Shown piece by piece: positions 3,530-49,052 of a stretch of DNA of 64,000 nucleotides. The stretch spans positions 224,967,293-225,031,292 of the forward strand of contig OY986435.1 in assembly GCA_963920525.1 (NCBI GenBank), written 5' to 3'. The notes under the pieces were generated by a model. It ran no database searches. It had not been told where the DNA came from and saw only the letters and a program-made list of their open reading frames with translations. The DNA is from Dichetophora obliterata (taxonomy: Eukaryota > Arthropoda > Insecta > Diptera > Sciomyzidae). Each line of letters begins with the position of its first letter. The stretch's first letter is position 1. Both the position numbers and the translations under genes were made by a program.

Positions 3530-3985
3530 GTGCCACACCACCTTTTACCGCCCACAAACCAATAAAAATGCTATATGTTTAAAACTACAAGACCGATTCA
3601 GCTGAAATTTTGGCAGTAAATTTCCTTCGAGTAGAGGATAATTAAGGAACATTTTTTGCCACTCCCCCTTTTACCGCCCACAAATCCATAAAACTGCTGT
3701 ATCTGTAAAACTACGGGGCTGATTCAGCTGAAATTTAAACAGTAAAGTTTCATCAAATAAAGCATAGGGTTTATGATCAATATTTGGCCACACCCCCTTT
3801 TACCGTCCACAAATCAATAAAAATGCTATATCTCCAAAACTACGGGGCTGATTCAGCTAAAATTTTGGCAGTTAATTTACATCAAGTAGAGGATGGTTCA
3901 GGAAAAAATGGTGCCACTCTCCCTTTTACCGCCCACAAATCAATAAAAGTCCTATATCTTCAAAACTAAGGGGCTAATTGTAAGC
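3530..3985. repeat. Minisatellite, about 126-bp unit, 3.5 copies
   Basis: The motif TTTTACCGCCCACAAA recurs at 3543, 3669, 3798 (as TTTTACCGTCCACAAA) and 3924, a period of 126-129 bp. Each unit continues with an AATAAAAATGCTAT-like stretch and a 'GATTCAGCTGAAATTT' core. Single diverged units lie at 4205, 4725 and 4940. The flanks at 3365-3450 and 4010-4160 share a second motif (GTATGTATG runs followed by 'ACTTGTTGGTAT' and 'TTAAGCTGAAATTTA'). The array is therefore probably part of a larger dispersed element with internal repeats. A related segment starts at about 63900. Because the unit length is near a multiple of three it yields a false open frame at 3784-3969. Confidence 0.85.
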
Positions 3986-4225
3986 TGATTATAACTTGCT
4001 TTATTCGTATGTGTGTATGTATGCATGTATGTAAGTATGTATGTATGTGTGTATGTATATATGTATGTATTTATGATGTCCGTCAAAATTTGCAAACCAT
4101 TTTTCGCAATTTTGCAAACTTGTTGGTATCCTATTAAGCTGAAATTTAACATACATACGTTAGTCTGGTGACAATGCAATATAATGATAAAGTTTTTTGC
4201 CAGGCCCACTTTTACCGCCCAAAAA

Positions 4226-7200
4226 TCAATAATAAATAAAAAGTAAAAAAAAATGTTTAAATACGCTTTTATTTAAATAATGTTAATACTGTAATAAGGT
4301 TAATGGTCTAAAAAATTAACATGCTGTAGTATTTGCTAAGTTTTGAAAATAAAAGATGTTAATAATAAACCTTTATGACTAAAAAGTAAAAAATAAATAA
4401 AAAGTAAAAAAAAGTTTTTAAAAAATAAGCTTTTATTTAAAAAAGACGTGAACTAAAAATAAAAACTAAATTTAAGTGACATTCGTCATATTTGTATATA
4501 GTAGGTATATTCTAGGTGCAGAAGAACCCCTCTCTTGGTTACTCATCATCTTATGATGAAGCTTTATTATATAAGCGTACGTAAATTGGTAAGTTTTAAG
4601 GACATATATTAATTTAGAATTTTTCAAATACATTTATATTAAAAATCTTCTTCATACATCCATGCATCCATATCTAGAAGCTTTGGAATTTATATTAAAA
4701 ATGGGTGACAACGCCCTCTTTTGCAGCCCCCAAATCAATAAAAATACTTTATTTAAGACAATTTTTGTGGTATAAGACTTAAATTTTTAAAAATTAATTT
4801 GTATGGTTACATTCGGGAACAGTAAAAAAATGGGCGTGGTTGCTCTATAGCAACGCCCACTTTTTCATAATTCATTAAAACTGACTACTTGGCTGAGTCG
4901 ATTTGTTTCGCCTACGAGATAGTTTGGGAAAATTTAGCCAAACACCCTTTTACCGCCTACAAATCAATAAAAATGCTATACTTTTGACGGTTTTGGTCGT
5001 ATTAAAGTAAAATTTGGTAAAATAGTGCATATAGCTACCTTCAGAAACCGAACTTAAAATGGGCGTAGTCGCACTACAATTATGCCAGTTCAGATATACA
5101 AAAAATTGAAACTTTTTTCCGATGGGCATGAAAATTCTTATGTGGCAGTAAACCGTTATATGACAGGACAACGTTTTACTGCCAACCCTTTTCCAGCTGT
5201 TACTCATCTACATAAACCGGCGAGATCAAACAAACATGCAGCACTGCCCAAAACTATTCTACAAAGTACTCAATTGCAATTTAGGGTGCTCGCAATAACC
5301 AAAAGTACTCAATCTAACCATACCCAACTACCCAAGTCAATGTGAATACCCCTATTATTCTTATTAAGACATAGACTTTATCTGAGTCATGTGTGCAAGA
5401 GTAAAACACGATTACTTTTAGTTAAATGGAATATATCAAGATCTAGATTGTCAAAGTACTTTTGTATATTTGCATCTTGTAGATTTTACCCGAGTCCTTT
5501 TAATGCAGTGCTGGCAACAAATCTTAGAAATGTCTGGAAAATATCCTTAACCCAGATATGCCGACGGGCTTACTAGCGTAACATTCTAAATCTTTTAATT
5601 TTTTCTAAATCTCTTTAATCTGACATAGTATATTGCAAAACTGATGAATAATTAAAAAAATATATTTGTTCGCCAGCAAATACATCAACGAAAAACACTT
5701 TTCCACAAGTACTTGTGCTTCGTATTAGTTTTTCACAATTTTCTTTAAAAAAAAACAAACATAATAAAGCTTATAAAACTTTATCTCACCGATCACGTGG
5801 CATCACAAATTTTACAAAACTGAAATCTTTGAATAAAAAAAAAACGCATAAAGAACAACATTAGACAATCAACGATGAACGCTTTGGTTACCGCTATGTT
5901 AACAGATTTAAGCCACTGTTAACGCAGTACCTCGAAAAGAACAAGTGTACTACACGTAGTATGGTACTCATGACTGGGTTAAAGAGATGTTTTCTGAAGG
6001 CCTCTTATTCTAAAAATACAATGTTTGTAATTCAACAATGCTCGGGAATCAACTATAGTGACCAAGGAAATTTACAAACATTTGCAGCCTACTGCAATAG
6101 ATTTTCTTAAACAAACGTTCAACGCTTGTTTAGTTATGCAGTGTTTAAGGCTTTACGCATCCTCTACGCAATCTTGCTGAAATTTTTATTCATAAACATT
6201 TTTTTATTCATTGCTTAATTTTGTAAGGTTTGTGTCTAAACAATCGAAACTCTTTTACAAAAACGAAGAATTCTTGTACATTTGCAAATCTGTACTGAAA
6301 AAAGTATGCAAAGGTCGAAAATGGAGCTTGTCTATGATATAAATATCACATACATCAACCTTAATCGAAAAGACGATTAAAATTTTAGGTTAAGTTTACA
6401 CAGCCTTTAAACGCAAATTTCGGCGTTTAAGTTACGCAGATCTTAAACTAGCCCGAAAAACATTTATGAATAACGATGTGTAGTTTAAACGGTTGTTGGT
6501 CAAATCGAAGCGTGTATGGCTTTGCCAATTGATCAGTTTGGCAGTTGTCGAGTTGGTTGATAAAAATCAAAACATTTTTTCAAAAGAATAACTAATGCAA
6601 AAACTATAAAAGATTTAAATTTGTTACCAGTTTAACGTTGTGGTCTGAGCTCAGAAAAAATTAAGGATATTTGGTCCCTAACTCCTTTTGTGCAACCGGA
6701 AAATGCATATTGGCTTAAAAAGATTTTAACGTTTGAAAAAATAAAAACAAACGATGAAAGCGAGTCAATCGATGTATGCTTATCTGACGAATAAGAATCA
6801 AAAAATCCGCAGAGTTGCAACAAATTTCTTCACAAAAGGTGTACTGGACTAAGCTTCTGTAAATTTTTTTTCAAACTATGAAACTTTATTGTATTTATAA
6901 CATTTTTGTCATCAAAAAAATGTATTTAATAAATAATTTGTTCCATCAATTATATGCAAAGCAAATAAATAAATCAATAGAAATGAAAATATTATTAATC
7001 ACTTGAATAATAAAGTGTTTGGACTATTTCATTTATTCTGTATCTATTACTTATGGCTAATTTAGAGCTCAATGAGAGCTGCTGAACATTTTTAAACGGC
7101 ACCCATATCGATAATAACTAGAATACCACAATTGACTTGGACAAAAGTTAATGCTTTAACAAAGATCTGAATGCATACCAAATTTTATCAAAATCGCAGC

Positions 7201-7350: not shown

Positions 7351-7527
7351 CACAGTACAACATTTTTCAGTTCATTGATTGCCAACTCAATTCTGAGAAC
7401 TGTATGTGAAATTAGACCCAAAAAGAAGAATTTCTGCATCATTCGTTTTGTCTTCTTACCTGCCAAAATATTTTTAATATCGATTTGAAGTTAGTAACTA
7501 TCGTATAGGGGAATTTTTCACGTTTTA
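7351..7527 (+). repeat. Left terminal inverted repeat of the 3.1-kb transposon
   Basis: It pairs with 10304-10468 on the opposite strand. The repeats are close to identical from the 'GCCAACTCAATTCTGAG' block inward to 'TATAGGGGAATTT'. A few bases differ next to the tip (about 7362-7379), where the left copy carries extra sequence. Confidence 0.9.
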
Positions 7528-7881: not shown

Positions 7882-9820
7882 ATGGAAAACAACAAGTGCC
7901 CAAATTTGGATGAATTTTGTTACGTTTGTGGTCATATCGTCCGAAAAATACAGAAAAAAGATCGAAAAAATTTGTTTACTGAGCAATTCAAAACCGCGTA
8001 TTGTAATTATTTCGATGAAGCAGATTTAAGTGGTGCAAATTTTATGCCGAACACAGTGTGCAACAGTTGTTATACTACCCTTCTAAGATGGATGCACGGA
8101 AAAAGTAGAAAGTTGTCTTTTATAAAGCCAGTAATTTGGGTGGAAGACCTAACTGGACATGAATCCAGGTGCTACGCATGCATAAATTTTCGTCCTGGAT
8201 TAAACAGAAATCAATTGAAAGCAAAAGTATACACTGCTGCATTTACTGCCACACTTCCAGTGCAACGCCCTGCTGATACCGATGCACCTAAACCTCCGAG
8301 TGCGGATACTGTGTCCCTGCTAGCCGAAACCGTTTTCACCAATCCGACCAATTTGGATGATGCTGATTGGACACCCGATATTGAAAATAATGGATCAGAA
8401 CCGGTTACACAAATCGAAATGGATTACATTGTGGCTAAGATGGGACTATCACAACAAAACTCGGAATGGTTGACATCATTTTTGAAGCGCAGAAAACTCA
8501 CACAGCAAAATGTCAGCGCAACATCATACCGACAACGCCAAGCTGATTTTCAGAAATTTTATTCTGTTGACGAAGCAAATACGTTCACGTACTGCCATGA
8601 TATACTAGGCTTAGTGGAAAAATTGGGAATGGTTTATATCGCTGGCGACTGGCGTTTATTCATCGATGGTTCAGTTACCAGTTTGAAGGCTGTGCTGCTG
8701 CACAAAAAAAAATAAAAAACCATCCATTCCATTGGGATTCAGCACAACTATGAAGGAAACGTATGAAGCATTGGGCGAAATTTTGAAGAAAATCAAATAC
8801 GATGAACGCAAATGGAACATTTGTTGCGATCTGAAGGTGATCAACATACTACAAGGGATTATAGAAAAGGGCGGATATCCAAAATACTTCTGCTTCCTTT
8901 GTAATCGGGATTCACGATACAAAGGAAATCAATATCAATGTAAAGATTGGAAAGGAAGAACTCCCGAGCTCAACAAACAATTAAAATTACGCAATGAACC
9001 TATGATAAAGGACCTGGATGATATTTTGTTGCCACCGCTCCACATGAAACTGGGAATAGCTGGGAAATTTGTTGAAGTGGTGGTCAAAAAAGTTAACGGC
9101 GCCTGTGACTGTTTGAAATCCATCTTTCCGAAACTCAGTGATGAGAAAATTAAAAACGGTACGTATCGTACTCTGTATTTAAATATTGTCATATTTAAAT
9201 TTGTTAATTTCTATACATTCGCATTACCAATAATTTGTTCGTTTTTCTTATGTATTTAAAACAGGTATTCTCAATGGACCTGATATTCGGAAATTGATCA
9301 AAAGTGATTCTTTCACAAATTTGCTTTCAGAGCATCACGAACACCAACATGCATGGAACGCATTGAAAAAAGTAATAGAAGGTGTTCTAGGAAAGAACCG
9401 TGTCCAGCGAGAAGAGATACAGCAACGAGTGGACAGGTTGCTGTATTATTTCGAAAAAATCGGTGCATCCATGACGCTGAAATTGCATTTCTTGCACCAC
9501 CACCTCGATACCTTTTTGGCACAATCATCTCAGGAATCAGACGAACAAGGAGAGAGGTTCCACCAGGTGACCATGCCAATTGAAAAGCGGTTCAAAAGCA
9601 AAAAATTGGATGCATTGCTTGCGGAGGTTTGTTGGTGGAGTTCCACAATTATGCAGTTGAAATTGGTGGACACAGTGAAAGAAACACGCCCTTGAATAGT
9701 ATGTGTATCTCGGATGACGATACAGACTCAGACCATGAATATGAACAACCTACGAAGAAAACAAGATCATCAGAACCACAAGCGTCAACTTCTACAAGGA
9801 TGGATATTGCCAATAATTGA
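7882..9820 (+). pseudogene. Broken transposase-like gene with one intron
   Basis: Three open pieces form one protein: 7882-8712, about 8718-9158, then after a GT-AG intron (9159-9264) 9265-9695, with an acidic tail in another frame to 9820. The N-terminus has paired cysteines typical of a zinc-binding domain (C13/C16, C60/C63, C97/C100 of the first piece). A beta-strand-like 'WRLFIDGS', then 'CDLKVI', then 'SDEQGERFHQ' offer a D, D and E compatible with an RNase H-fold transposase; this triad is my inference. From memory, the same order of motifs occurs in many uncharacterised insect and cnidarian proteins of transposon origin. The copy is disrupted by a frameshift at an A-run (8703-8711) and probably a second shift near 9610-9690. 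Splicing restores the family motif across the intron (Asn-Gly-Ile), supporting it. Confidence 0.8.
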
Positions 9821-10303: not shown

Positions 10304-10468
10304 TTAAACGTGATAAATTCCCCTATACGATAGTACTAACTTCAAATCGATATTAAAAATATTTTGGCAGGTAAGAAGACAAAACGAATGATGCAGAAAT
10401 TCTTCTTTTGGGTCTAATTTCACATACAGTTCTCAGAATTGAGTTGGCAAATCATGTGTTGTACTGTG
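10304..10468 (-). repeat. Right terminal inverted repeat of the 3.1-kb transposon
   Basis: Complement of 7351-7527, ending in TGTTGTACTGTG and followed by TTA. It begins at the inner edge with TTAAACGTGATAAATTCCCC. Confidence 0.9.
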
Positions 10469-16083: not shown

Positions 16084-16616
16084 AAAAGGGTAAGTGTCAG
16101 AAGGAAACTTTTCAGTCGTGGTAGGATAGAAAATATCAGGTTGAATAAAATTTGTGTGTGTTGAAATAAATTTGTCTTTTTTGCTGTGTCAATTGGACGA
16201 TGAAATTTTGACAATTGCAAATTTTGACGTTTCACATTTCGATCGTGTCTTATACTACGTTCATACTACGGCATAAATTACTTAATTTGTCATAAATTAC
16301 TTCACTTAAATCAACTGCGTTCAAACTAGCTGTTCGTTATTTGTTTTGACAGTTCGTTGACAACTCATATATTTGCTTATTTTGTGGCAAATGTAAGTAA
16401 AGCAAAGAAAGTAAATAAGCCATCGCGAGGCATAAACGTGAATTTAAACAGTTTTTGTTTTATTTAGCATGTCCGACCATCAAAAATTGATAAGTTTCCA
16501 CTATTTTTAATTTTAAATCTTTATACTGTCCCACTATGTACTTAAATTTTAAAAAACAAATAAAACGTTCCATAGTTGCTTTTTAATTTTAAAAATTCTA
16601 TACTGTAACATGTCGG

Positions 16617-17270
16617 TTATTTTATTGTCTTTCCAACGAGATAAATATGATTAATGTTGGACGAAATGGGAGCACTTTCTAGCAGTGTTCTTAGCAGTTC
16701 AAGTTTTCTAATACTGAATCCAGGCATATCCTGCACGTACTCTTTTAATTTTTCCGGTTGTGACAAGTCAATAGCCGTTGATGCAGAACGACACTCTTTG
16801 GTTAGTCCCAGCTGGCCAGCATCAAAGACACCCCCTAGCTGAGGCCACAACGTCGAAAATTCTTCAACATTCAAACTGCTTGGTTCGGCTAACGATTTGA
16901 GCTAGTCAGAGCAATGGATGCTCATCGCAGAGCTGGTGAATGAATTGGAATTTGGGAATACGAATACCAATTTTTCTAGTACTTGGATTGAGGAAACTAA
17001 TGCTTAAGTTCTGTGAACGTTCGATAACTATCGTTCTGGATCCCGGCAGCAAACGTTTCAACAACGCATCGTTTATATGCTCAGCTTTACCATAGCAACG
17101 AAGAGTAGCCTAGTCTTTCACACAAATTGCCATTGGTTTATGACAGTCTTGTCCTTTGATTTCATACAACTTTTGTATGGCCTTCTCATTGTTGGCATTG
17201 CAGGCTAGACCATAAACAGTGTCGGTTGGTAGAGCTATAACTTCGTCCGATTGTAAGCATCTTCGTGCTT
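16617..17270 (-). pseudogene. YRDC (threonylcarbamoyl-AMP synthase) fragment
   Basis: YRDC/Sua5 proteins make threonylcarbamoyl-AMP for the t6A modification of tRNA. Running down the minus strand, family motifs appear in order: 'ALPTDTVYGLAC', 'IKGQDCHKPMAICV', 'LLPGSRTIVIERS', 'GIRIPKFQFI', 'LTSSN', 'VEEFSTLWPQL' and 'STAIDLSQP'. These cover most of the catalytic domain. The frame is broken by a stop after 'AICVKD' (17110) and at least two further shifts or stops near 16860-16920, so no product is expected. The N-terminus is missing and the gene is joined to the POLR3K fragment upstream. A neighbouring order POLR3K then YRDC matches, from memory, the dicistronic CG33785/CG33786 pair of Drosophila. 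Confidence 0.85.
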
Positions 17271-17624
17271 GATTACAGCATTTGTAAAATGTTGTCATAG
17301 GTTCATCAGCAGAGCGATTTTGCATCTGCATAAAATAAGCTTGTTTGAGAGCACAAGCCGGATAATAAGCATCAGTTGAATCTACGTTCTCCCAAGCAGC
17401 TGCACCGCCCATAACATGATTCACTTCCTAAAACATTGCAGAAATCTTAATAATAGTTCGTCTCAAATACTTAGAGCACTACTCACCTTTAGCCGTGGAA
17501 AGGTACGCGTTAAAATGTTTTAATTGATGTTTCAAATGTAAGGACATGTATTGCATAAAAAGCGATGACCTGTAGTGTCTTCCTCTACCATTAAAATATT
17601 ACCGCAAGTCGGACAAAACAACAT
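17110..17624 (-). pseudogene. POLR3K (RNA polymerase III small subunit) fragment, fused to start of YRDC
   Basis: POLR3K is a roughly 108-residue zinc-ribbon subunit of RNA polymerase III that acts in RNA cleavage and termination. Exon 1 (17624-17487) opens with MLFCPTCGN and continues to 'CNTCPYI', the first zinc ribbon, but has two stops after it. A 59-bp GT-AG intron follows (17486-17428), opening with GTGAGT. Exon 2 holds 'GGAAAWENVDST' and 'RSADEPMTTFYKCCN', hallmark POLR3K sequence; the cysteine pair expected after DST is partly lost and the last residues after KCCN are missing. Directly after KCCN the frame runs into YRDC sequence ('ALPTDTVYGLAC'), so a deletion joined the two genes. 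Because the intron is kept, this came from genomic DNA, not from spliced mRNA. Confidence 0.85.
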
Positions 17625-18010
17625 TGTGAACTTTGGATTTGGTTATTTACAAAAATGACAGCTTGTGATGCGATTTTTCGATTATTTATCGAAAAAACTA
17701 GTGCTGACACCGATTGCATCTTAATTTAAGTGGTAATTTATGATAAATTACTTAATTTCGAAGTAATTTCATTGACAGTTTTTCCACGGCGAAATTACTT
17801 AATTTGGTCATGATTTATGCATAAATTTAGATTGAGCCGTAAATTACGATAGTGAGAACATGGTATTAGCGCAAATATTTTGTTTAATTTGCATTTTATT
17901 CAATTTGCGACATATTTCATTCGTGTGCTTGTACTTGCAACTTATTTCGTAAACTTGTAATATTGTAAACTTAAAAAACTTAAAAAATAGCAAAATAATA
18001 AAAAAAAAAA

Positions 18011-26746: not shown

Positions 26747-28683
26747 TCAGACTATAACAGCTAATAATGTGTCAATATCACTGTAATTGAGGTCTAAAAG
26801 CCAAAACTTTACCCTTTTGAGAAAAATGGATTGAACATAAATATTTCTTATTTCCGATGGAAGACTATTGAAAAGTCGAGGAGCAACAGAAGTAAAAAAG
26901 TTAAGAAATATTCTTAATGTGTGCGTTAGAACCAGTGCTACACTGTATTCATTAACTCTCAAATGATAGGTATCTGAACGTCGTCTCAGAAGATATCCAG
27001 ATTTAATAAAAAAAATTTTCAATACTCTATAGAAATATAAATGTTTCAAAGGAAGGACACTAAGTTTCCTAAAAAGTAACAGGCTACTACAAAATCTGTT
27101 CTTATGACAAACTAAACGAATAGCATGCTTTTGCGAAACGAGAAGAGGCTATCTTTTATTCTTATAAGTACCTCCCCAACAAGCTAAACCATACTCAAGT
27201 TTAGAGTGAAATATACCATAGTAAATACACTTGAGAAGAATAGGACTACAATATCATTTCAACACATACAAATGCCTGGTGGCAGCCAAAAGATACTTTT
27301 TAAGTTCACGTGTATGAATTGTCCAATCCATGTCACTATCTAGCCAAATACCTAGATATCTAAAAGAATTAACCTATTCAATAGCGAAGTAGTTTAAAGA
27401 ACAAGACTTATGATCACAGAACGTATGAATGCAATCCGACGAGGAACATACATATATCATAACCTAAACCAAATCTTTCACATTTACCACCATGAAAAAA
27501 AAAATGAATCGAAGTTTACATTTTTAGCATTCACATTAAAAAGCATTATTCTAGTTTTATCACTAAGTACCTGCTTATGAATCATAAACCAGTGCCTTAA
27601 AACAGCGAGATCATTGTTAATGTCAACAGACAATTGCAAGGTCGAGACACAAGAAAAGGCACATGCCATATCATCAGCAGAAGCATTGATGGAACTCCGG
27701 AACTTTATTGAAAAAAGCGAATTTATAAAGATTAAAAACAATATAGGACCCAGCACTGAGCCCTGAGGAACCCCTAATGTCAACAATTCTAATGAACTAT
27801 AACAATTAAATATTTTTACTTGCTGCTTTCTGTTTTTTAAATAGGACTGAAACCATTTAAAGATAAATCCCCTAAAGCCAGTCTTATAAATTTTATCAAG
27901 CAAAATTGTATGGTCCACTGTGTCAAACGCTGTAGTGATATCAACAAAAAGAGCTGCTGTTAACCGTTTATTATTAAGGCTGCAGTAAATGTTTGTAAAG
28001 AAATTCAATAATGCGTCTTCTGTTGATAGGCCAGATCTAAAACCAAACTGGAGTTTACTGAAACAATTATATTTCTCCATAAGGAGCACAATTCGAGCTT
28101 TCATTAATTTTTCAAATATTTTAGAAAATACCGGAAGAAGTGAAATGGGTCTGTAGTTTATAATTATGGAAGGTAAAACCTCTGCTACTTTTAAACCATC
28201 TGGAAATATACCACAGGTAACGCTTAAGTTGTAAATAAAGCTTAAAATGTCACTATTGAAGTAGACTTTCTTTTTTTAAAAATTATTAGATACATAACTA
28301 CAAGTAGTAGAATCTGAAGATTTTAATGATAAAATGGTTTTGAAAACTTCAAAAGAGCTGATAGGTTTAAAAACAAAAGTAGCTTGATTTGAAGCTTCAT
28401 TTGATATACAGTTACACTGTTGACCATTTACACAGCTTTCAGCAACTACTTCTTTACCTATTCTGGAAAAAAAACTATTATATCCATTAGCAATATCCTG
28501 AGCATTAGAAATAGTACTATTGTCAATTGAGATGCTAGATATCTGATCTTTATTACAATTCTTGCTCAAAATATTATTTACTAATTTCCACTCACCTTTA
28601 ATATCACCACTTACTTTATAAAACTCACATAGATAGTAATCATTTTTACAAGGCAGTACATCACTTGAAATCTCTATACACAA
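26747..28683 (-). pseudogene. LINE reverse transcriptase, broken
   Basis: Pieces in order on the minus strand: 28683-28276 (pre-RT linker, 'NGYNSFFSRIGKEV'), a bridging stretch with 'NYRPISLLPVFSKIFEKL' (about 28165-28105), 28104-27484 (RT core) and 27049-26747 (C-terminus, 'RLFNSLPSEIRN'). The core has 'FGFRSGLSTEDALL', motif A 'ALFVDITTAFDTVDH', motif B 'GVPQGSVLGPILF' and motif C 'ASADDMA'. The Asp-Asp pair is kept but the aromatic residue normally before ADD is Ser. The frame is lost by 28275 and again by 27484; roughly 430 bp to 27049 are scrambled. Not functional. Confidence 0.9.
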
Positions 28684-38329: not shown

Positions 38330-40090
38330 AGCAGCCCAAGGATAACACCAAATCTCATAACGGAATGTAAATTAAGACATATGCTCTACAGAAGGTGGAA
38401 GAATAATAGTAGAAATACAACATATGAAAAAGAGTATAAAAGTATAGGCAACAAAATAAATAAAAGCATAGCATCACAAAAGCTGAATTATTACACAAAT
38501 AAGATAATGCAATATTTAACTTATCCTCGGAAAACATAAAATTATAGGAAGAAAAAGATTAAACATCGACGAAACAATGGGAATAAATTTTAAGATAGAA
38601 ACGGCTTCACTTGCCAATAAACTTGCAGAGTATTTCTCGTCCCAGACGGAGAAAATAGTTCACAAATGCAATACTGCAACATGAAACAATGATAATGCAA
38701 CAGTGGAAAATTCAATCTTCGCTCACGCAACAGACGTTATTGAGATAATAAATATTGTAAAAGGTCTTGGAGAAGATAAGGCGCCTGGAGTTGATGGTAT
38801 CAGAGCAATCGATAGCAAAAGCCATTCCAATATCTTTGTTCCAATCATCTGCAAATTAATAAATTTGAGCATTACTCAATCAACTATTCCTTCAACCTTG
38901 AAAACAGCAGTAAATAAACCAATTTATAAAGGCGGAGTCAAAAATCAACTGAACAACTACAGGCCAATATCGATTCTTTCAGTAATATTAAAGTGCTTGG
39001 GTAGCGTAGTTAACAACAGATTACAAAGTATTATTGAAAAACACAAAAAATACTGATACATATGAACCAGTATGGTTTTCGGAAAAGAAAAAGAATATTG
39101 GAAAGTTACTTGGTGAATTTGCAAATTGTGTTAGTGAGAGCTTGGATAAAGGGCACCACGTGTTAGTATTGTACATAAATTTCAGTAAGGCCTTCGGTAC
39201 ATTCAACCACTCTAAACTTATAGAAGCACTACGAAGGATTGGGATACGAGGCACAACACGGTACCACAGGGATCAAAACTGGGACAAGTTTTTTTTTAAT
39301 ATTATATACCAACGAACTCCTGCAAGTTTTCAAACAAAATACACTATTTGCTTTTGCTGATGATACGGCTATTGTGATCCGAAATACTTCTCTGGATGCG
39401 GCAGTAAGGGCTATGCAGGAAGAATTAAATGAGGCTGTGAGATGGTGTCACGATAATGGTTTAGTTATAAACGCTTCCAAAACAAAAATTATGCACATAC
39501 AAAGTCCACGCTTTAAGCCAGCAGAACAACGCATTCACTTGGAAAATTATGCTTGCGCGACCACTGCGAAGGAATGCATTGAGTAAGTTGACAGCTATAA
39601 ATATCTTGATGTAGTAATAGACTGTCACTTTATCTGGTATAGAAGCACATTGAAAAATTACGAACCTCAAAAAAGCTTTATTTGCCATTTCTCATTTGAA
39701 ATATCACATTTCTGAAGGCGTATTAAAACAAGTATATTATGCATTGATGGAGTCGTGGATACGGTATGGAATACTTGCTTGTGGTAGTGAAGCAAAAACA
39801 CACATAAAAAAATTTAAAAGCTTCAAAATGCAGCTTTTGACCACACACAAAATAGCAGTCAACGAGGGATTGACGCAAGATTTAAAACTTTTCAAGTTTG
39901 GGACATATTTAAAATGAGCACCATAGTTTGCTGACAACCGCTTTATTAAACCAATACATCATCAAGTCAACACCAGAAAAAGAGCCCAAGAAATTCTGAA
40001 AACTTCTAGAAAGTACAAGAACTACGGTAGACACAAACTCAATTATATTGTTCCTAATAAACGAAATATTTACCTTTGGAAATAGTAAAT
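38330..40090 (+). pseudogene. LINE reverse transcriptase, decayed, plus strand
   Basis: The frame fragments follow a non-LTR retrotransposon ORF2 from the linker to the C-terminus. About 38340 starts 'WITPNLITECK'-like linker sequence; 38703-39056 has 'DKAPGVDGI' and 'NNYRPISILSVILK'; 39034-39360 has motif A as 'LYINFSKAFGTFNH', where the usual catalytic Asp is Asn; 'VPQGSKLG' at about 39260-39285 is motif B; 39239-39586 has motif C 'FAFADDTAIV' and 'NASKTKIMHI'; 39696-39917 continues with 'ALMESWIRYGILACG'. An A-rich stretch at about 40100 may be the 3' tail. At least four frame changes and the Asp loss make it inactive. It belongs to a different family from the 26.4-29.0 kb LINE. Confidence 0.85.
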
Positions 40091-41746: not shown

Positions 41747-43036
41747 AAGGGTCCGCCTTATAACTAGTGCTTATTTCGTGAATGGTAACACTTAGCTCAT
41801 GTCTGATTCGACAGATAATTAGTTTTATCTCTACGCTGAACGACTATGGTTTTGTATACGCTTGAACAACGCTGGGAAATATTGCGACATTACTTTGAAA
41901 ATCATGGTAATGTTGCAGAATGTGTGCGAAAATTGCGTATGGATTTTGGAAGAAGAGAAGCACCGTCAGCTCCGTATGTTCGTTATCTTGTGAAAAAAGT
42001 GAAAGAAACTGGCATCCTCATCGATAAACCAAAGCGTGAAAAGCCAAAAACAGTGCATACACCCGAGAATATTGCTGCTGTGGCAGAAAGTGTGCGTGAA
42101 GCGCCATCAACATCAATTCACCGTCGTTCTCGACAATTGAACATTTCGGAGACATTATTGAGACGAATTTTGCATAAAGACCTTGGTATGACGCCATACA
42201 AAGTCCAATTGGTTCAGGAGTTGAAGCCAACTGACCATCCAATGCGTTTTCGCTTCGCTAAGTGGGCCTGCGATTGACTTACAGAAGATGCCGATTTAGC
42301 CAAAAAAAATCATCTTTTCAGATGAAGCTCATTTTGATCTTGGCGGGTATGTAAACAAGCAAAATTGTCGCATTTGGGGCACAGAAAAGCCGCACGCATA
42401 CATTGAAAAGCCGCTGCACCCAAAACGAGTCAGTGTTTGGTGCGGATTTTGGTCCAGCGGCATAATTGGGCCATTTTTCTTCGAAAATGAGCAAGGAGTG
42501 ACCGTTACAGTCAATGGCGATCGTTATCGGGCCATATTGAACGAATTTTTGTTCACAAAAATTGAAGAGGAGGATATTGGCAACATTTGGTTTCAACAGG
42601 ACGGCACTACGTGCCACACAGCCGAAGCTACACTCGATGTTTTGCGCCCTGTTTTTGAAGATCGCATTATCAGCCGCAGAGCTGATGTCGTTTGGCCACC
42701 TCGGAGCTGCGATTTGACACCGTTGGACTATTATTTGTGGGGTGCCCTCAAAGATAAGTGTTACGCCGACAAGCCAGAGACAATTGACGCTTTAAAGGAC
42801 AATATTCGTGAAGCCATTGATGAAATACAGCTGCACACAATCGATAATGTGCTTAAAAATTGGACCGATCGTTTAGGCTACTGCATGGCCAGCCGAGGCA
42901 GCCATTTGAATGAAATTATTTTCCATTATTAACCGGAAGGATTTTACTTTCAAATAAAAAAATAAATTTGAGAAAATATTTAGTATTTTTTTTTTATAGA
43001 ATTTTCAAAAAGAAAAAAGTTATTTGGCGGACCCTT
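41747..43036 (+). mobile_element. Full-length mariner element (1,290 bp)
   Basis: The ends AAGGGTCCGCC and GGCGGACCCTT are exact 11-bp complements, with further similarity (ATAACT) just inside. TA flanks both ends (41745-41746 and 43037-43038), the mariner target duplication. The transposase gene occupies 41846-42932, and an AATAAA signal follows the stop. Length and structure are as expected for a complete mariner, but the gene is broken. Confidence 0.97.
41846..42932 (+). pseudogene. Mariner-type transposase, one stop and one frameshift
   Basis: A Tc1/mariner DDE/D transposase of about 360 residues. The N-terminal half (41846-42277) contains two helix-turn-helix regions ('LEQRWEILRHYFENHGNVAE' and the 'RRILHKDLGM' region). 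The catalytic half has 'IFSDEAHFDLGG' (first D), 'WFQQDGTTCH' (second D) and 'PPRSCDLTPLDYYLWG' (third D). I count 36 residues between the second and third Asp, unlike the 34 of classical mariner. It ends '...GSHLNEIIFHY'. Defects: a TGA at 42275-42277 where the family has Trp, and one extra A in the A-run at 42301-42309. Both are small changes, so the copy is fairly young. Confidence 0.95.
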
Positions 43037-47854: not shown

Positions 47855-48179
47855 CCGATACGGTAACACTTTTACTAAAAACAAATAGATTTACCAATAT
47901 TATATATACTTTTTGATTCATATGTATAAACTGTTTTCTAAATTAGTTCGATGTCATATGCTGACTGTAGCTACGAATAAACATCCACAAAAAATTAAAG
48001 CTTACTGTACAACAATAACTACTTAGCAAATTAACAACAACAACGCAAAGAGAATTACAAGATCCCAGCGGTTGCACAGCGTTAGAGGGGATGAACCGAA
48101 TTGGCGGCGTAAAATATACAGCACTTTGCATGCTATATTTTCTGTTTGCCTGCTGTTTCGTTCATTTTTTTAATTTTTT

Positions 48180-49052
48180 AACAGTTTTTTAAGTTTACAA
48201 TATTACAAGTTTACGAAATATGTTGCAAGTACAAGCTCTCGAATTAATTGTGTCGCAAATTGATAATATGCAAATAAAATAAAATATTTGCGCTAAAACA
48301 CGACCGAAATGTCAAAATTTGTAATTGTCAAAATTTCATCGTCCATTTGACACAGCAAAAAAGACAAATTTATTTCAACACACACAAATTTTATTCAACT
48401 TGATATTTTCTATCCTACCACGACTGATTGACACACAGCCATAGTTGACAACTCTGAATATAAAATGCCGCAGTGGTGAAAATAAAAAGCCACTGACAAA
48501 TACAACAAGTGTGAAAATTGTCAAACTTTGCTTGACGATATGTAATAAAATAAGAGCATGCATGTAATTATTTGAATGTTCAACATATGCCTTTATCACA
48601 ACTTAAAGATTAAAATGTTAAAACACTCAATATATACATTATTTTTCTTGTTTGCAAACGAAGTTCCAGCAGAAAAAAGAAAAAAAAGAAGAAGATGGAT
48701 CCATTTTTAAATCTCACCATGAATAGCAGCTGTTTGAGTAAAAGCAAATTTTTCAAAAATGTTGACAAATACATCAACTGAAGAAATTGTCAAACTTTAA
48801 AGGCATATATATATAAATATAAACCGAATTAATAATAAGTTTTGGTTGTAAACATCTTATTGCAACCTAACTTAAGTATTTATATACTAACAAACAGATT
48901 ATATGCATTAATTTCAGGAGTTGCCAAGTGATTTCTTTGTGAGCTTGCGGCCGAATGACGAATTCCTTGGAAAAATACGATGATGCAAACGAATTATTTA
49001 CCCTCTACCAAAATCGTTCAACGCACCTAAAGAAGTTTTCACTTCAAAAAAC
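48180..49052 (-). repeat. Dispersed repeat, copy B (uninterrupted)
   Basis: Inverted relative to copy A (14934-18000). It runs without the two insertions seen there, so it serves as the empty-site reference for the POLR3K/YRDC element and for the 15690-16083 MITE. No coding capacity. Confidence 0.85.

Follow-up and report, generated by a model that had tools for sequence, protein, structure and literature searches.

Genes of the host within transposon ends

Between positions 16253 and 17865 of the DNA analysed here (a stretch of 64,000 nucleotides from the fly Dichetophora obliterata, called the window below), parts of two host genes, POLR3K and YRDC, lie between inverted ends. Did a transposon pick up host DNA, or did a host locus decay in place? 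The sequence-only reading of the window had opted for the first answer, a 'Pack-type' (gene-capturing) DNA transposon flanked by TTA and enclosing, in order on one strand, an intron-retaining POLR3K fragment and a YRDC fragment, possibly with pieces of promoter. It advised searching the same genome for further copies, for a source locus and for empty sites, and comparing the intron with the source gene. Two findings were to speak against it: an intact native gene pair at this position in relatives, or the absence of TTA and of similar ends in other copies.

Boundaries and parts of the element

In the sequence, the 1,613-bp element at 16253-17865 has a TTA directly outside both borders (Table 1), and the coordinates first given for it proved exact. 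Its ends, TACTACGTTCATACTACGG and, read inward from the right, TACCATGTTCTCACTATCG, are imperfect inverted repeats that match by eye at 13 of 19 positions. The minus strand carries, in this order, POLR3K exon 1, an intron, POLR3K exon 2 and, after a 196-bp deletion, YRDC. Compared with the family consensus, the window copy lacks 45 bp and 26 bp, the latter within YRDC, and is 2.5% divergent. The spacer between the left arm and YRDC had no match in the native locus (L060) or in the read parts of three gene-less relatives (L081, L082 and L083).

The host repeat that was hit by the element recurs in the window at 48954-48173, on the minus strand, and there the site is empty. It reads CGTGTTTTAGCGC, compared to CGTGTCTTA followed by the 1,613-bp element and TTAGCGC at the filled site.

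Table 1. Features of the element and of its empty target site, in window coordinates
Feature	Position	Strand	Basis or remark
Left target site duplication, TTA	16250..16252	.	Flank comparison
Left PIF/Harbinger terminal arm: inverted terminus TACTACGTTCATACTACGG, subterminal repeats, leader	16253..16496	.	
Probable remnant of a transposase ORF start; consensus MSDQEKVIS	16469..16495	+	By-eye comparison with L082; start codon inferred
Spacer from left arm to YRDC 3' end	16497..16687	.	45 bp shorter than consensus
YRDC (Sua5/YciO/YrdC), captured coding part, frameshifted, first codons gone	16688..17269	-	Native L060:4005-4615
Junction of 196-bp internal deletion, POLR3K exon 2 fused in frame to YRDC	17269..17270	-	Native L060:3809-4004 missing
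POLR3K exon 2, TFIIS-type zinc ribbon	17270..17427	-	
Retained POLR3K intron, GT...AG, 59 nt	17428..17486	-	
POLR3K exon 1 with in-frame TAA	17487..17624	-	
What is left of the POLR3K 5' leader; about 15 nt long where erosion is less	17625..17631	-	
Right PIF/Harbinger terminal arm; runs into Myb-like ORF in relatives	17632..17865	.	Consensus arm 94.8% identical to L082, 97.4% to L083
Right target site duplication, TTA	17866..17868	.	Flank comparison
Empty paralogous target site: same host repeat, one TTA, no element	48173..48440	-	

The captured gene pair and its native source

The open reading frame at 17110-17424 (-) matches the Pfam families PF01096 (TFIIS zinc ribbon, 2.6e-12) and PF01300 (Sua5/YciO/YrdC, 7.6e-17). 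POLR3K is a subunit of RNA polymerase III, and YRDC is a tRNA-modification enzyme. The best match in a genome-wide search with the YRDC profile was a complete native gene (C3:12910014-12910547, 153.5 bits, 265-aa open frame), which at locus L060 lies directly behind a complete POLR3K having the same intron. Compared with this locus, the family consensus was 94.6% identical in POLR3K (counting the intron) and 93.8% identical in YRDC; differences affected 8.1% of synonymous sites and 3.5% of nonsynonymous sites. Within the 8.5 kb read at L060, the consensus matched the captured span only. In the least eroded copies this span begins near L060:3435, 15 nt ahead of the POLR3K start, and ends near 4639, some 20 nt beyond the YRDC stop, less positions 3809-4004.

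The captured DNA is a near-complete two-gene unit of about 1.0 kb rather than small fragments. The sequence-only reading was right about the presence of both genes, in order on one strand and with the intron; its 'fragments' turn out to be a nearly whole pair less 196 bp. Its suggestion that pieces of promoter were carried along has to be dropped: the match starts about 15 nt before the POLR3K start, and the pair stands behind the transposon's leader instead. Neither the native promoter sequence nor the native 3' signal was matched in the copies compared, and no poly-A tract was seen at the YRDC end of the aligned copies. The hallmarks of a processed pseudogene, intron loss and a poly-A tract, are not those of this element, which retains the intron.

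The Drosophila melanogaster pair CG33786/CG33785 has been described as a dicistronic locus whose first frame measures 108 aa (PMC2276209); from this length and from the table label, we read the first frame as POLR3K. Among 120 listed of 404 protein matches, the nearest relatives were fly proteins, and the only chimeric POLR3K-YRDC protein of another species was P0101 from the beetle Aromia moschata, a 256-aa gene model joining the end of POLR3K to YRDC. Since this model joins both domains, the neighbourhood of the two genes may be old in insects, and P0101 may reflect such adjacency.

Copies and target site duplications

A DNA search of the same genome (1.31 Gb in 76 contigs) was carried out with the element, and the best 40 of 527 candidates were scored. 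They yielded 42 matches: the window copy, 39 further copies whose main matches were 90-94% identical, and two additional pieces that belong to two of these copies. Both ends were present in 32 of the 40 copies, and identical 3-bp flanks were found in 30 of these 32 (16 TTA, 14 TAA), the exceptions being L013 and L019. In no pair among the 32 were the two 400-bp flanks both shared for at least 100 bp, and the copies accordingly look like separate insertions. The majority consensus of the 40 copies is 1,682 bp long; individual copies differ from it by 1.1 to 2.7%, and from each other by 3.0% on average. Being the best matches, they represent the young end of the family. Among the further copies of L061-L079 (with L078, which holds two, left out), the TTA or TAA duplication was found in 11 out of 11 two-ended cases. 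Two of these, L062 and L063, of an older gene-bearing subfamily (C3:141.96 and 141.98 Mb), are near-identical and lie in opposite orientation about 18 kb apart, which looks like an inverted segmental duplication.

The YRDC profile search, in which the best 150 of 298 candidates were scored, all above the family cut-off, gave one native gene and at least 149 other places, the window included, a good part of them with internal stops. The sequence itself was read for about 60 copies among these 149. The broken gene pair appears to be present at well over a hundred places in the genome. The right terminus together with TTA or TAA, with at most two mismatches, occurred 248 times genome-wide, compared to 0 for a reversed control pattern. 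Of 100 listed termini, 61 had a scored YRDC match at a distance of up to 4 kb, 5 had a Myb-like match next to them and 34 had neither; the last figure is no proof of other cargo, because L080, one of the 34, turned out on reading to carry POLR3K-YRDC. A contiguous element consisting of the two arms alone was not found among the best 40 of 594 candidates, and a search of a plasmid collection gave no match.

The locus does not stand alone: the genome contains further copies (39 in the first search, at least 149 YRDC places besides the native gene in the second), an intact source pair at C3:12.91 Mb and, within the window, a paralogous empty site, and the intron lies retained in the stretch of POLR3K that is 94.6% identical to the source. 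Both findings that were to speak against a transposon are contradicted, the first within one genome by the native pair elsewhere and the paralogous empty site, the second by the recurrence of TTA and of the ends in other copies. These are the characters of a Pack-TIR: host gene DNA lies between the termini, its parental copy (L060) is unlinked to that transposon, and the element moves as a unit with its own duplication at each site. Helitrons are defined by the absence of target duplications and of inverted ends; here 3-bp duplications and inverted ends are both present, and a Helitron was rejected.

Harbinger relatives share the arms

The transposon partner was found by way of termini without YRDC and by way of a Myb-like ORF. 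L080, L081 and L082 were chosen as termini without a scored YRDC match nearby, and 2 kb of each was read; three gene-less relatives, L081 to L083, were read altogether, L081 and L083 in part. With the DDE_Tnp_4 profile as another route, the nearest of the best 150 of 3,425 candidates was about 24 kb from any of the 100 listed termini.

L082 has both arms (right arm 94.8% identical; left arm, consensus positions 1-243, 91.9%) and no captured gene; it carries a Myb-like frame and, on the opposite strand, a piece of transposase that is 63% identical to the putative nuclease HARBI1 of Zeugodacus cucurbitae (5.1e-21). This piece has no Pfam match itself, and the superfamily call therefore rests on its protein relatives: 36 matching proteins, many of which carry PF26138 and some PF13359. 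In L081, a right arm of 91.7% identity is accompanied by the Myb-like frame. In L083, a right arm of 97.4% is followed by the Myb-like frame with a later stop, and about 4 kb from the arm the opposite strand contains transposase matches whose open frames span 173 and 371 aa, while a further piece of the match is interrupted by three stops. The Myb-like ORF matches Pfam Myb_DNA-bind_4 weakly (0.0017, below Pfam's cut-off). When 56 Myb-like and 56 transposase places were compared, 40 pairs were convergent within 15 kb and 2 were arranged otherwise; a convergent two-gene layout is usual for Harbinger elements.

The inverted termini are common to the element and to the relatives that encode a HARBI1-type transposase (L082 and L083), and the 3-bp TTA/TAA duplication of the family is a PIF/Harbinger feature. 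Since the arms match those of relatives with a Myb-like ORF and a HARBI1-type transposase, we take them for PIF/Harbinger ends. In our best explanation, taken in full, the element is very probably a non-autonomous, gene-capturing PIF/Harbinger transposon. Copies, ends, duplications and native source all support the Pack-type proposal made from the window alone, to which the superfamily is an addition.

Two observations concern Harbinger elements at large. The 3,425 first-look DDE_Tnp_4 candidates genome-wide (150 scored) include groups of identically scoring open frames, of 303 and 391 aa, which suggest several recently active families. The relative with the 97.4% arm was found twice, 50 kb apart (C2:130258780-130263891 and C2:130308677-130313788); given their equal match scores, this is probably a segmental duplication.

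A single capture followed by decay

The 20 copies of L061-L079 were inspected at the deletion: 17 show the exact jump from L060:3808 to 4005, two (L068 and L071) come within 6 nt of it, and the remaining one, in L078, has no sequence before the joint. In an alignment of 59 copies, from which L064 and L074 were dropped as split by other insertions, 43 rows had the exact junction pattern and 16 had no exact match. The in-frame TAA of exon 1 was found in 52 of 55 covering copies (one of the other three has TGA), and a 1-nt deletion near the end of YRDC, which shifts the frame, in 56 of 56. Splice sites, the 5' site included, are mostly intact, the intron AG being kept in 54 of 56 covering rows. 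Because the deletion, the early stop and the frameshift are common to the copies, a single capture, with a cargo already broken before it spread, appears most likely.

The deletion leaves POLR3K exon 2 and YRDC in one frame of 173 aa, which is uninterrupted in 33 of 40 copies. Unique changes in this frame comprised 42 synonymous, 108 nonsynonymous and 6 nonsense changes, compared to 35.7, 111.4 and 8.9 expected. Selection on the fused frame was not found, whether as an excess of synonymous changes (P = 0.13) or as a paucity of nonsense changes (P = 0.21); the shortage of the latter (1.9%, compared to 5.3% expected) became smaller once shared changes were counted singly. Judged by these substitutions, the frame appears to drift neutrally, and the cargo most likely has no coding role.

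A gene tree was built from 59 copies together with the native gene. Its longest tips among the copies measure 0.045 to 0.05 (L061, L078 and L079) and the native branch 0.037, while the window subfamily forms a shallow cluster; copies outside this subfamily are 91.5 to 94.4% identical to the native gene. Tips of nearly the length of the native branch, together with the shallow cluster, would fit a capture that was soon followed by the first spread, with further bursts later on.

The join, and how the element may have arisen

The right arm of L082 passes directly into the start codon of the Myb-like frame (CCAAAACTCAAAATGG); that of L066 runs into the POLR3K leader and start (AAACTCAAAGTTCACAAAAATAT, the start codon having since changed), and the native POLR3K start reads TTAAAAGTTTACAAAAATATG. 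The host pair lies in sense where the transposon's Myb-like ORF began, within about 13 bp, a margin that is set by a difference between L083 and L082 at that spot. The left arm keeps about nine codons of an apparent transposase start, followed by the spacer. The two breakpoints lie where the two ORFs of the element itself begin, a striking pattern noticed post hoc, and a few matching A bases span the joint on the POLR3K side. Within the consensus, short internal repeats of subterminal sequence were seen, but not a second complete terminus.

Interior replacement by template switching is the favoured origin, because the arms look as if a single element had been cut within its own genes or next to them, leaving its two ends, and because of the matching A bases. 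While a Harbinger copy was being repaired or replicated, the DNA strand would have switched to POLR3K-YRDC at short matching bases and then back, and the switched-in piece would have replaced the interior of the element. The 196-bp internal deletion would have come after capture, transposase may have been supplied in trans by related Harbinger copies, as the shared ends and duplications suggest, and the gene-bearing element would have spread in several bursts. Template switching followed by transposition has been proposed for multicopy cases in a survey of animal Pack-TIRs (PMC8277862).

A Pack-Harbinger could also have formed from two insertions close to each other, one on either side of the gene pair, which later transposed together as a single element, as proposed for the Pack-PIF, Pack-CACTA and Pack-hAT elements of plants (PMC8903248). 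We consider this possible but unlikely here: the arms stop near Harbinger's own two ORF starts, and the consensus shows no second complete terminus, although internal ends might have been lost. Arm ends and missing inner terminus fit interior replacement better.

Replacement of the interior need not have taken place in this species. The synonymous divergence between element and native gene implies that the donor need not be this species' gene, and with the 91.5 to 94.4% identity of copies outside the window subfamily it leaves some room for a capture in another fly species, with the finished element reaching this genome through horizontal transfer or introgression. We regard this as decidedly unlikely, the longest tips being near the native branch, as expected for a capture in this lineage with an early onset of spread.

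That an unspliced dicistronic pre-mRNA was retrocopied and later caught between transposon ends is highly improbable and was rejected, even if the captured piece seems to start near where transcription could plausibly begin, 15 nt ahead of the ATG, and a dicistronic arrangement is on record for D. melanogaster (PMC2276209): the intron is kept, the piece breaks off about 20 nt past the YRDC stop, before a native AATAAA motif and with no poly-A tract seen there in aligned copies, and the duplications are 3-bp TTA or TAA. A decayed native or segmentally duplicated locus, lying by chance between transposon insertions, would account for the native gene order and the intron, yet it deserves hardly any credence and was rejected, being contradicted by the intact locus elsewhere (L060), by the empty site in the window and by one unit with the same ends and with target duplications at many sites, no two of its 32 two-ended copies having both 400-bp flanks in common for at least 100 bp.

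A further reading concerns consequences rather than origin. POLR3K-YRDC was placed behind the transposon's leader at the site of the Myb-like ORF, and the two genes are fused in frame; from this, the founder might have expressed the host pair from the transposon's own promoter, and its many sense or read-through antisense transcripts may now feed small RNAs against the native genes. We hold this to be very doubtful; the intact founding state occurred in no copy read (exon-1 stop in 52 of 55).

Other features of the window

A broken transposase gene, which we take to be mariner-like, lies at 41846-42932 (+) in two frames, the first matching PF16087 (DUF4817) and the second without Pfam match. 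Two decayed reverse transcriptase genes (PF00078), probably LINE-type, are found at 27484-28104 (-) and 39239-39586 (+). At 7882-9695 (+), three consecutive frames of 277, 175 and 133 aa, without Pfam match, are enclosed by inverted repeats (7379-7525 and 10306-10450) of 98% identity, and are perhaps one decayed transposon gene.

Significance and comparison with known systems

Gene capture by cut-and-paste transposons is thought to be common in plants, and in animals was found to be mostly single-copy (PMC8277862). A family with a known source gene, a transposon partner, graded divergence and one junction makes capture and its aftermath testable in an animal. It opens the questions of how the join was formed, whether a host gene tolerates so many homologous copies, and whether small-RNA defence against a transposon can spill onto an essential gene. 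If the small-RNA reading were true, transposon spread would be linked to RNA polymerase III and to tRNA modification.

None of the titles or opening lines of abstracts in a literature search described this element, which has relatives in kind. Turmoil-1 of Caenorhabditis elegans is, likewise, an animal Harbinger that captured intron-bearing host DNA, for which its authors report no purifying selection; it carries 205-bp and 131-bp pieces of two unrelated genes within long inverted repeats, and is described as one complete copy and eight fragments (PMC2572040). The present element differs in that its interior holds about 1.0 kb from two adjacent genes, and in its far greater number of copies.

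The survey of animal Pack-TIRs reported 370 of them in 100 genomes, four multicopy, none in insect reference genomes, with separate duplications at each locus; it describes Ssk-FB4 of D. melanogaster, of which four copies carry Ssk captured almost completely, and its main text does not contain the word Harbinger (PMC8277862). The present family resembles these elements, Ssk-FB4 included, as a TIR transposon with a near-completely captured host gene and a distinct duplication at each locus. Unlike Ssk-FB4, it is present in far greater numbers and belongs to PIF/Harbinger.

Cluster 18 of the maize Pack-PIFs is of the same superfamily and, as here, has gene-less and gene-bearing groups (52 and 72 elements) with common ends; its captured piece measures 163 bp in elements of about 535 bp (PMC8903248), whereas ours is a near-complete two-gene unit in a 1.7-kb element. 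Derivatives of Muta1 in the mosquito Aedes aegypti, about 20% of which have internal regions alignable to host genes, are similarly dipteran TIR transposons with a host-gene interior. They are of the Mutator superfamily, with long termini, 8-10 bp duplications and, in one example, a gene piece of 276 bp (PMC5225508), in contrast to the 3-bp TTA/TAA duplications and the PIF/Harbinger arms found here.

Pack elements are known already. What is unusual here is that two genes are carried as a unit, that a fly element of this kind belongs to this superfamily, and that the copies are so many. The element is a member in kind of the Pack-type elements, and a variant in degree and arrangement: a transposon-borne, near-complete host gene pair at this copy number is rarely seen in animals.
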